Of a stretch of DNA of 64,000 nt, positions 21,856 through 25,393 are shown in pieces. The position numbers were made by a program, and so were the translations under genes. The notes under the pieces are model-generated. The model saw only the letters and a list, made by a program, of their open reading frames with translations. It ran no database searches and had not been told where the DNA came from. Numbering within the stretch: the first letter of the stretch is position 1; every line of letters begins with the position of its first letter. Where the stretch lies: assembly GCA_017408885.1 (NCBI GenBank), contig JAFQTT010000012.1, positions 1 through 64,000 of the forward strand. Direction: 5' to 3'. Origin of the DNA: Methanocorpusculum sp. GTDB taxonomy: Archaea > Halobacteriota > Methanomicrobia > Methanomicrobiales > Methanocorpusculaceae.

Positions 21856-21918
21856 AAATATAATACCAAAACCCCCTCATACAGCAGATTGATAAAGATA
21901 AACAGCGGAAAAGATACT

Positions 21919-22215
21919 ATGGAAAATCAGCCGACCCGCGAAGAAATCAAAGCCAAAGCCGAGGAGATTTATCCGGCAGTCCTCCGTGTTGCAGAGGTAA
22001 AAGGCTGGGGTATTAACGAAAATAAAGACATTGCAGATTCAATTGTGGAAGGGCTTGCAAGAAATGTCCTTCTCCGCGGCAAAAAGTACTGTCCGTGTGT
22101 TCTTCCGTCAGGAGATGAGGAGGAGGATAAGAAATACATCTGTCCGTGCCGCAATTCTGCAAAGGATGTTGAAGAGACCGGGCACTGTCACTGTTATCTG
22201 TATATGAAACAGTAA
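21919..22215 (+). CDS. Ferredoxin-thioredoxin reductase catalytic subunit-like
   Basis: The start at 21919 (MENQPTREEIKAK) gives 98 aa; a TTG-initiated form ten codons longer is less likely. The Cys pattern CPC (58-60), CPC (75-77), CHC (90-92) is the 4Fe-4S plus redox-active disulfide site of FTR beta chains, which use reduced ferredoxin to reduce thioredoxin-like disulfides. No variable subunit is nearby; archaeal FTR proteins usually work without it. The TATA-like TTTAAATATA sits about 60 bases upstream. Confidence 0.88.
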   Translation: MENQPTREEIKAKAEEIYPAVLRVAEVKGWGINENKDIADSIVEGLARNVLLRGKKYCPCVLPSGDEEEDKKYICPCRNSAKDVEETGHCHCYLYMKQ

Positions 22216-23114: not shown

Positions 23115-23660
23115 ATGGAATGCAGTAAATGCCGCAGTGAGGCTGTTATCACACAATCATATTCCGGACTGTCTCTTTGTATGCGGCATCTGATTTCAGA
23201 TATCGAATCGAAGGCGAAAAAAGAGATTCGAAAAAAAGGCGGCCTTGCATCTTCCGAGCGGATTTATCTAAAAGGCGGAGATGACTACAGGCTCTATGCC
23301 CTTCGGATATTTGTGAGTGCGCTGTTTCTGAAAAGAACAGACATCATCTTTGTCACATCAGAAGATGAGGCAACAACTGTCTTTTCCTCTGAGACTTTGG
23401 ACGATGCCGCCTGCGGACTTCTGGATGCAGTCCTTAAAGGCCGGACTGCTGACTATCTCGAGGCAAAAAAGAAACGGGTTATAGCTCCGCTCTCGGTGAT
23501 TCCGGCAGAAGAGGTATATCTCTATGCCAAAGCTCACGGATGGAAAGGTGACGGTGTTTCTTCGTCTTCGACAAAAGAGTTCCTTGATGCCTTCTCGAAA
23601 GGACGTCCCGGAACCAAATATGCGCTGAAAAATACTGCTGATTTTCTGGAGGATATCTAA
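23115..23660 (+). CDS. Degenerate NcsA/TtuA-like protein lacking the PP-loop
   Basis: The first 60 residues resemble the start of tRNA 2-thiolation enzymes (NcsA/Ncs6/TtuA): a CxxC (C3, C6), YSGLSLCMRHL (16-26) and a basic helix ending KKGGLASSERI. Where the family has the ATP-binding SGGKDS, this protein has KGGDDY (53-58), and at 181 aa it is much shorter than the usual 300. It also lacks the middle CxxC pair that binds the Fe-S cluster. It is therefore unlikely to adenylate tRNA. Its stop overlaps the nadE start by one base (TAATG), so the two are coupled. Function unknown. Confidence 0.7.
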   Translation: MECSKCRSEAVITQSYSGLSLCMRHLISDIESKAKKEIRKKGGLASSERIYLKGGDDYRLYALRIFVSALFLKRTDIIFVTSEDEATTVFSSETLDDAACGLLDAVLKGRTADYLEAKKKRVIAPLSVIPAEEVYLYAKAHGWKGDGVSSSSTKEFLDAFSKGRPGTKYALKNTADFLEDI

Positions 23661-24403
23661 TGACAATGTGCGAATGCATCGGATGCGAGATTGTAAAAAT
23701 AAAAGACCACATGAGAGGAGCTGTGTGGAATACTCATGCAGCAGGGTTTGTTGTCGGAATCTCCGGAGGAATTGACTCTGCTGTTGCCTGCGCTTTGGCC
23801 GCAAAGGCAGTCGGTCCAGAACGTGTTTTAGGTGTGAGTATGCCTGTCTCTTCCAACTCACCGCAGGATGCTGCAGACGCCGCAGAACTCTGCAAAGCGC
23901 TCGGCGTTGAGCTGATTACAGTTCCCCTGGGCGATGTTCTGGATACATTCCTTTCTCTGGATGGAATCACCAATACGCCTGTTCTTGCAGGAAATATTGC
24001 ATCACGCCTTAGAATGACTGCTCTCTACAACATCGCAGCATCCAGAGGATATCTTGTCTGCGGGACTTCGAATAAGACCGAGTACATGATAGGCTACTCA
24101 ACCAAATGGGGAGACGGGGCATCCGATGTTCAGCCGCTTCTGCATCTGTACAAAAAGGATGTGTATGCGTTGGCAGAGGAGCTTGGAATTCCTCAGGCCA
24201 TTATCAACAAAGCTCCAAGTGCCGGATTCTTTGAAGGCCAGACTGATGAGGCAGACATTGGTCTGTCGTATGCGGAACTTGATTCTGCTCTGTGGAATCT
24301 GGAACTGAATGAGTTTGTGCCGCAGAATGCAGTCGAAGAGAAGGTTTTGGGACTTGTGATAAAGAGTGAGCACAAACGAAAACCTCCGGTGTTTATTCCC
24401 TGA
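23660..24403 (+). CDS. nadE: NAD+ synthase, ammonia-dependent type
   Basis: Converts nicotinate adenine dinucleotide to NAD+ using ATP and ammonia. The 247-aa protein lacks a glutaminase domain, as in most archaea. Motifs include the PP-loop VGISGGIDSAVA (SGGIDS at 35-40), ASRLRMTALYNIA, GTSNKTEYMIGYSTKWGDGA and APSAGFFEGQTDE. The N-terminus has an extra CECIGC not needed for the fold. Translation is linked to the degenerate NcsA-like gene upstream, which is an unusual pairing of two PP-loop-family relatives. Confidence 0.95.
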   Translation: MTMCECIGCEIVKIKDHMRGAVWNTHAAGFVVGISGGIDSAVACALAAKAVGPERVLGVSMPVSSNSPQDAADAAELCKALGVELITVPLGDVLDTFLSLDGITNTPVLAGNIASRLRMTALYNIAASRGYLVCGTSNKTEYMIGYSTKWGDGASDVQPLLHLYKKDVYALAEELGIPQAIINKAPSAGFFEGQTDEADIGLSYAELDSALWNLELNEFVPQNAVEEKVLGLVIKSEHKRKPPVFIP

Positions 24404-24451: not shown

Positions 24452-25393
24452 ATGGGTGAACCAAACCACGAACAGGCAGCTGCGGAAATCACCGCAGTTC
24501 TGCAGACTGCCGGATATGATTGTGAACCGGAAGAAGGTCCGTTCAACCTCTCCGGTGTCAGAGGAAACAAGTGTATACTTGTAATGTGCTCTGACGACTT
24601 AAACGGGCTCCAGCGTTTTGACATGACGCCATACACCATCATGCTTGGCGGCTCCAAAGTACGCTGTGACAAGATAATTTTTACAGGAAACTCCTACTTC
24701 CAGCCGAAGGAATCCACACTCTGGACAAAGGAAACACTTCTTCAGAACATTGCTCTCTCAGCAGAAGCAAGAATCTACGGACTTCCATTCGACATCGAGT
24801 CAACTCCTTCCTTCGCATACTCGGCTGTTGCAACCCCGGATATATCTTCTGTCGGCTATGATCTCATGCTTCCTGTCAGAATCAGCGCAAAAGATGCAGT
24901 ACGTGTCGCACATCAGGATGGGCCAACCGTTCTTCGCATGATTCCATACTGGAGATACCATTACACAAGCGGAGGCGAGGCAACATACAAAGGAAAGAGT
25001 GTCTGCTTCGATGCTGAAGGCGACGGCTGGATTAATGCGGTAAACGGCCTTGAGTGGGAATTCGATGACGATGCAATCCCTGTGCCGGGAGAACTTCCGG
25101 CTGACGCTGATGTTGTTGCCCCGATGACTCAGAAGAACGATGCCAAAGAGACTGTCATGGCCGAGCTTATCAAAAAGCTCACCCGCCGTGTCAGAATCAA
25201 GACAACAGCAGGGGATGCCATCTTCGCAGAAGAGAAGGAGTTCAGACCAACTGAAGACAACATTGTAATCAAAGTCGATAAGGTCTATGTCCCTGTCTGG
25301 CAGGTAAGAGGCAAGAAGGATATTGTTGAGGTCAACGCATTCAACGGTCAGGAGTTAGCTCTCCCGTCTGACGAAGGATGCGAGGTCTTCTAA
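24452..25393 (+). CDS. Conserved protein of unknown function, coupled to a flavin oxidoreductase
   Basis: I do not recognise this 313-aa soluble protein. It begins with a short alpha/beta region (EITAVLQTAGYDCEPEEG... KCILVMCSDD) and has a Trp- and Tyr-rich middle (MIPYWRYHYTSGGEATYKGK). The C-terminal part has a beta-rich segment (NIVIKVDKVYVPVWQVRGKKDIVEVNAF). There are no membrane spans or Cys clusters. One base separates it from the lipoamide-dehydrogenase-like gene, so the pair is probably one functional unit. Confidence 0.75.
   Translation: MGEPNHEQAAAEITAVLQTAGYDCEPEEGPFNLSGVRGNKCILVMCSDDLNGLQRFDMTPYTIMLGGSKVRCDKIIFTGNSYFQPKESTLWTKETLLQNIALSAEARIYGLPFDIESTPSFAYSAVATPDISSVGYDLMLPVRISAKDAVRVAHQDGPTVLRMIPYWRYHYTSGGEATYKGKSVCFDAEGDGWINAVNGLEWEFDDDAIPVPGELPADADVVAPMTQKNDAKETVMAELIKKLTRRVRIKTTAGDAIFAEEKEFRPTEDNIVIKVDKVYVPVWQVRGKKDIVEVNAFNGQELALPSDEGCEVF

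Follow-up and report, generated by a model that had tools for sequence, protein, structure and literature searches.

Passages of PMC10067955 attribute U34 thiolation in archaea to one NcsA alone and describe NcsA of M. maripaludis (MmNcsA) as a dimer. The same passages model Ctu2, which has no Fe-S cysteines and keeps its zinc sites, in the place of the second NcsA subunit, and suggest that the zinc-containing end domains of NcsA may move to clamp the anticodon loop. Ncs2 and Ncs6 form a heterodimer according to a passage of PMC10450187, and the role of Ncs2, the dead partner in the eukaryotic U34 thiolase, was called still unclear in part of a 2017 review (PMC5372739). No dead archaeal NcsA was reported in literature listings on NcsA with Ncs2 or with Methanomicrobiales, on Methanocorpusculum thiouridine and on the TtuA dimer interface, nor in passages of PMC10067955, PMC2948915, PMC5372739 and PMC10450187.

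The window analysed here is a stretch of 64,000 nucleotides from Methanocorpusculum sp. An earlier note, made from its sequence alone, had pointed to an NcsA-like protein without PP-loop before nadE. This core observation was confirmed, and it lies far beyond chance. The protein (copy A) has the common fold, the N-terminal zinc finger and the LDD and P..EV..YA segments of M. maripaludis NcsA (6SCY; PMC10067955). Unlike that enzyme, it has no PP-loop, no Fe-S cysteines and no C-terminal zinc ribbon, and it is about 115 residues shorter. TtuA, the s2U54 sulfurtransferase (5MKO, 5B4E, 3VRH), shares the fold (Z about 15–17) and the TtuA_LIM_N finger with dead A. However, dead A is without the catalytic features of TtuA, and it scores better against NcsA than against TtuA by both profile and fold. 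Like Ncs2/Ctu2, dead A is a diverged NcsA-type homologue without Fe-S cysteines that keeps a zinc site and coexists with a catalytic homologue. Unlike Ncs2/Ctu2, it is far shorter, has only the N-terminal zinc site and would have a separate origin in one archaeal order. The intact copy A found elsewhere in Methanomicrobiales (Methanoculleus, Methanofollis, Methanogenium) belongs to the same family and, where tested, lies in the same neighbourhood. It has about 296–300 aa, with SGGKDS, CxxCG, CPY and the C-terminal CxxC pairs; the named records were checked for the PP-loop alone.

Sequence and predicted fold of copy A

The features of the locus are as follows.

23115..23660, + strand: copy A, the dead paralogue of NcsA; open frame with 181 codons (181 aa)
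23121..23189, + strand: N-terminal zinc finger, residues 3–25, with C3, C6, C22 and H25 and the loop Q14-x-Y16-S17-G18; Pfam TtuA_LIM_N
23196..23258, + strand: basic helix region past the finger, residues 28–48; 13 of 13 dead-A groups retain K35 and R39
23277..23294, + strand: site of the lost PP-loop, residues 55–60, GDDYRL opposite SGGKDS of intact copies in alignments
23352..23366, + strand: excision scar, where intact NcsA has about 68 more residues (intact residues 82–149 unmatched)
23397..23405, + strand: residual LDD motif, residues 95–97, from alignments
23487..23528, + strand: kept PLSVIPAEEVYLYA segment, residues 125–138; P125, P130, E133 and Y137 invariant
23604..23627, + strand: kept C-terminal RPGTKYAL segment, residues 164–171, from alignments
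23660..24403, + strand: nadE, NH3-dependent NAD synthase, 247 aa; PF02540, and TIGR00552 above its cut-off

The Pfam scan of the window protein (E up to 1) gave TtuA_LIM_N (PF22082) as the sole match, with 33.3 bits against a cut-off of 27, in agreement with the resemblance of the N-terminal zinc/Cys region to tRNA thiolation enzymes that the earlier note had described. The NCBIfam NcsA model NF047749 matched residues 1–43 only, and its 34.2 bits did not reach the cut-off of 500. The tested intact A and B copies, at 177–260 bits, also fell below it, so this cut-off is uninformative in Methanomicrobiales. The closest named records to the window protein are from Methanocorpusculum, with at most 91% identity.

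In alignment to the intact copies, the PP-loop SGGKDS for ATP is absent and GDDYRL stands there. The loss of this loop had been read correctly; the replacement had been given as KGGDDY, which is residues 53–58, two upstream of the aligned residues. The cysteines of the [4Fe-4S] cluster (CxxCG and CPY) are absent, as both segments are deleted in the alignments. The segment excised at the scar held the Asp-Glu-Gly strand and the CxxCG cysteines, and the gap is also seen against 6SCY. The middle CxxC pair is thus missing, as had been noticed, and the C-terminal zinc cysteines are gone as well since the chain stops before the position of the ribbon. Against intact copies, the missing parts are about 68 middle residues, the CPY segment and the C-terminal ribbon. 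The protein had been called half the usual length; it is about 60% (181 against about 296–300 aa).

A family profile was built from 27 relatives, and its residues 1–185 aligned to residues 4–270 of 6SCY with an E of 6e-18. The AlphaFold2 model of the window protein had a mean pLDDT of 94.3 and a pTM of 0.89. The comparison with NcsA structures, which the earlier note had proposed, was carried out with VIA-align, and the model matched 6SCY_B with a Z of 18.0 and an rmsd of 2.3 Å over 178 of 181 residues. The structures of TtuA came next in the same search, and NAD synthases and GMP synthases had a Z of about 6. Matches of this kind, ranked under the thiolases and TilS, are taken as the common PP-ATPase fold only. 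The profile and the predicted fold indicate that the window protein is a whole, shrunken NcsA and more than an N-terminus, to which the similarity had been confined before. Annotation from the N-terminal zinc finger alone would mislabel dead A as a thiolase.

Copy B and the state of copy A across the order

The search for another NcsA in the same genome found an intact NcsA-like gene, copy B (G000:C6:6052-6930), with SGGKDS, CxxCG, CPY and two C-terminal CxxC. Copies A and B were then surveyed in the 64 genomes whose matches were fetched and read; genomes beyond these 64 are untallied. Intact A without B was found in 24 genomes and intact A with intact B in four (G014, G015, G025, G031). Dead A together with B was found in 35, and B was intact in all 35. 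One genome (G125, 96% complete) has B without A, and none of the 64 has dead A without B. Dead A is thereby kept in 35 of the 36 surveyed genomes having B without intact A. G106, G193 and G197, which are 77–86% complete, have B without a match to A and were left out of these counts. Relatives with a complete PP-loop had been named in the earlier note as evidence against its reading. Such relatives exist (28 of 64 genomes), only without a second NcsA or, in the four genomes above, with both copies intact. The presence of B, not of nadE, predicts the state of A. The nadE-linked copy A is the ancestral NcsA of the order, and it is often intact.

Intermediate and extreme forms were also found. Copy A is partly dead in G022, G080 and G047, where the PP-loop is broken and the cysteines are retained. 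In L024 (G147; 1501-1983), dead A has no zinc finger, and an upstream frame stops just before the remaining coding region. Among 80 named records, the PP-loop was present in 45, absent in 32 and unreadable in 3. The intact form was seen in Methanofollis, Methanogenium, Methanolinea and most of the Methanoculleus entries listed, and one Methanoculleus record (UBA77) has an altered loop. The dead form was seen in the listed entries of Methanocorpusculum, Methanomicrobium mobile, Methanocalculus and Methanoregula, among them the cultured Methanocorpusculum parvum strain XII and Methanomicrobium mobile BP.

The tree of NadE was used as a species proxy for 54 of the 64 genomes, the other 10 having no nadE in the fetched stretch. 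This tree rejects a single clade of dead-A genomes (AU p 1.9e-38). The best NadE tree carries seven changes between dead and intact A, and at least four are forced by supported branches. Intact and dead A also coexist inside the genus codes g5, g6 and g11. These results suggest that the death of A was repeated within the order. Against recurrence, the tree of A sequences, in which long branches dominate, is compatible with one clade of dead A (not rejected; AU p 0.17 on 12 of 48 dead rows), and phylogenetically independent pairs are too few. None of these pairs runs in the wrong direction, and about three to four are informative on supported branches (median p 0.25, not significant). In a tree of 150 rows, most dead A fall into one group where long branches meet. 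Nine near-duplicate dead rows were removed from the tree set, and the same set was used for the motif and identity counts below.

In the 150-row tree, B forms one clade (100), which would be sister to A if the tree was rooted among TtuA-like rows. A long-branched copy from outside the order, L163, sits inside this clade. The inner branching of B conflicts with the family codes; with this conflict and L163 within B, the tree leaves duplication with losses and lateral transfer unseparated. L163 itself (G208:C1:958962-959840) is a B-like NcsA with an in-frame TAG, either a pseudogene or a recoded codon.

Selection and the nadE neighbourhood

Dead A is present in 25 of 25 genomes of the genus, within a sample of 199 genomes of the order. 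Its dN/dS is 0.10–0.29 across 18 pairs, and that of nadE is 0.03–0.16 in the same pairs. By segment (16 pairs pooled), dN/dS is 0.077 for the finger, 0.057 for the helix, 0.176 for the remnant core and 0.248 for the C-terminus. As judged from these ratios, dead A is under purifying selection, strongest on finger and helix. A recent frameshift or deletion of an intact gene, which the earlier note had raised against itself, is ruled out by the 25 genomes and the low dN/dS, and so is an assembly artefact. The marked shortening, the long branches, the loss of A in G125 and the loss of the finger in L024 could be expected of a slowly decaying relic without function. Such a relic is strongly disfavoured because dN/dS is low in 18 of 18 pairs, because dead A persists throughout the genus and in nearly all surveyed genomes with B and no intact A, and because the predicted fold is confident.

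The neighbouring nadE was considered as a partner, since the earlier note had proposed regulation of NAD synthase and a fusion by overlap. The overlap is real: the last A of TAA is the first base of ATG, one nucleotide in all. However, the genes are not fused. In the 22 tabulated loci of the genus, nadE is found –10 to +45 nt from the stop of dead A. The neighbourhood has RIO2 kinase and DUF460 genes in divergent orientation, followed by ncsA, in some cases a K+ channel, and then nadE. This order is found around intact and dead copies; the neighbour families were scanned in L050 and L051 only. That dead A could be a regulator or subunit of NadE would fit the overlap, the distance of no more than 45 nt in 22 of 22 loci, and G125, which has neither dead A nor a match to archaeal-type nadE (L078, E 1e-10). 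Nevertheless, this role is highly improbable. The order ncsA–nadE is present with intact NcsA too (e.g. L051), and a K+-channel gene, or a gap of similar size, lies between A and nadE in many genomes. Dead A occurs with no nadE within the fetched stretch in G022, G080, G002 and G047. G077 (L047, L255) has dead A and no match to archaeal-type nadE beyond a weak one, to a frame of 561 aa that lies on a different contig. Moreover, the state of A follows B and not nadE. The proposed regulation is not supported: the neighbourhood comes down from intact ncsA, and several genomes with dead A have it disrupted. Therefore, nadE is probably an inherited neighbour, not a functional partner of dead A.

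Some other genes of these neighbourhoods were recorded. For the gene often present between A and nadE, argS was considered in this analysis; Pfam gives a K+ channel instead in L050, the sole example scanned. At L051 1356-4171 (– strand), a RIO2 kinase lies divergently beside ncsA with a DUF460 protein that has a weak, below-cut-off match to the VLRF1 release factor. Frames of similar size stand at the RIO2/DUF460 position in other genomes, which may hint at a translation-linked neighbourhood. In the window, 24452-25393 (+ strand) encodes a 313-aa protein for which neither Pfam nor NCBIfam gave a match up to an E of 1, and which is conserved near nadE elsewhere in the order (e.g. 38% identity in L033, 43% in L043). 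Upstream of dead ncsA, 21889-22215 (+ strand) encodes the catalytic chain of a ferredoxin-thioredoxin reductase, and this gene adjoins that of a family-3 solute-binding protein.

Complementary conservation of A and B

Conserved columns were tallied over 47 dead rows in 13 genus-level groups, with L024 left out as it has no finger. In 13 of 13 groups, dead A keeps C3, C6, A10, Q14, Y16, S17, G18, L21, C22, H25, K35 and R39. On the other side, Q168, M172, N173, E204 and R205 (intact numbering), together with R142, are lost in 13 of 13, and the PP-loop Lys in 12 of 13. The mean between-group identity of dead A is 57% in the finger and 29% in the core. For B in genomes also holding dead A, the values are 42% and 52%, respectively. 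Of the 35 genomes that combine dead A with B, these means cover 34, since the dead copy of G126 is among the nine dropped rows. Intact A has 72% and 62%, and canonical archaeal NcsA outside the order has 57% and 50%. At a matched core identity of 45–60%, finger identity is 42% in B, 58% in canonical NcsA and 69% in intact A. All 28 intact A carry the motif Q.[YH]SG, as do 45 of 48 dead A; it is absent from all 40 B and present in 24 of 34 rows outside the order. The ten misses outside the order are three TtuA-like rows, the B-like L163, four with YSG and no Gln, L164 and L172.

B retains its zinc ligands. Its finger is already diverged in the four genomes with intact A; the drift of B therefore did not follow the death of A. 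The B copies of L257 (G093) and L078 (G125) have an A-like finger, FQRQSGRHLC, possibly by gene conversion from A. G125, with B only and this finger, is suggestive at most since B of G093 has the same finger alongside dead A.

The results show a dead active site in a gene that is retained and under selection, that co-occurs strictly with B and whose conservation is complementary to that of B. The new job that the earlier note had suggested from catalytic loss with a kept N-terminus agrees well with the kept finger and purifying selection, and tRNA binding or positioning fits. We propose, with a probability of roughly 0.5, that dead A serves B as a partner that orients the tRNA without catalysing the reaction, in analogy to Ncs2 and Ncs6. 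In the most economical account, the second NcsA-like gene, B, took over the catalytic job of the ancestral NcsA locus (tRNA U34 2-thiolase), so that the active site of A could decay while its finger and fold remained of use. Copy A no longer has ATP binding, an Fe-S cluster or the C-terminal zinc ribbon, but it stays folded and under selection. Dead A may pair with catalytic B, taking the position that the second subunit has in the NcsA homodimer, and provide the canonical N-terminal finger and helix, which would help to hold the tRNA through a putative finger–tRNA contact. B would provide the active site, presumably with U34 as target, and its own finger may have drifted because the finger of A does that work.

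This partner role appears the likeliest since NcsA is dimeric and eukaryotes pair a catalytic with a dead subunit in a similar modelled geometry. It is in line with the strict coupling of A and B over 64 genomes, the recurrent death of A with the same parts kept each time, the complementary conservation of finger and core in genomes holding both, purifying selection with a retained fold, and the precedents of the NcsA dimer, the Ctu2 geometry and the Ncs2–Ncs6 heterodimer. Several points stand against it. The reduction of dead A goes far beyond that of Ctu2, as the C-terminal zinc site is gone too. With its zinc ligands kept, B may act alone, and G125 has B and no A. The finger of B is diverged even beside intact A, and dead A of L024 has no zinc finger.

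The kept finger and helix could also bind RNA unaided. Ancestral NcsA may have had a second, non-catalytic job, such as the binding of tRNA or of a ubiquitin-like sulfur carrier in the role of a chaperone or regulator; once B had taken over thiolation, only this job would have been retained in A, without need of B as partner. Retention, selection and co-occurrence with B would be explained without a heterodimer, and B alone seems viable in G125. However, this leaves the poorly conserved zinc finger of B in the same genomes unexplained, and the kept residues include P198, P203, E206 and Y210 of the core (numbering of intact A), as one would expect if the fold dimerises. We consider such a second job rather unlikely, although it accounts for most of the facts. 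Dead A could instead be a brake that binds tRNA or the sulfur carrier, or poisons B homodimers, and so limits thiolation when sulfur is scarce. A brake shares the sequence evidence of the partner role, but the universal retention in the genus better fits a constitutive part, which makes it improbable.

With dead A as the partner of B, the order may have evolved, several times, a two-subunit U34-tRNA thiolase composed of a catalytic, finger-drifted B and a dead, finger-supplying A. We give this extension somewhat less than an even chance. If true, the order would have a counterpart of eukaryotic Ncs6–Ncs2 that arose independently, and its living members would represent the intact, half-dead and fully dead stages. 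The complementary halves of the ancestral enzyme kept by the two copies suggest a two-part enzyme as in human cells. Close relatives span a single enzyme, two intact copies, a half-dead copy and a fully dead copy. With such a series of stages in close relatives, the purpose of a dead thiolase subunit becomes testable by gene swaps.
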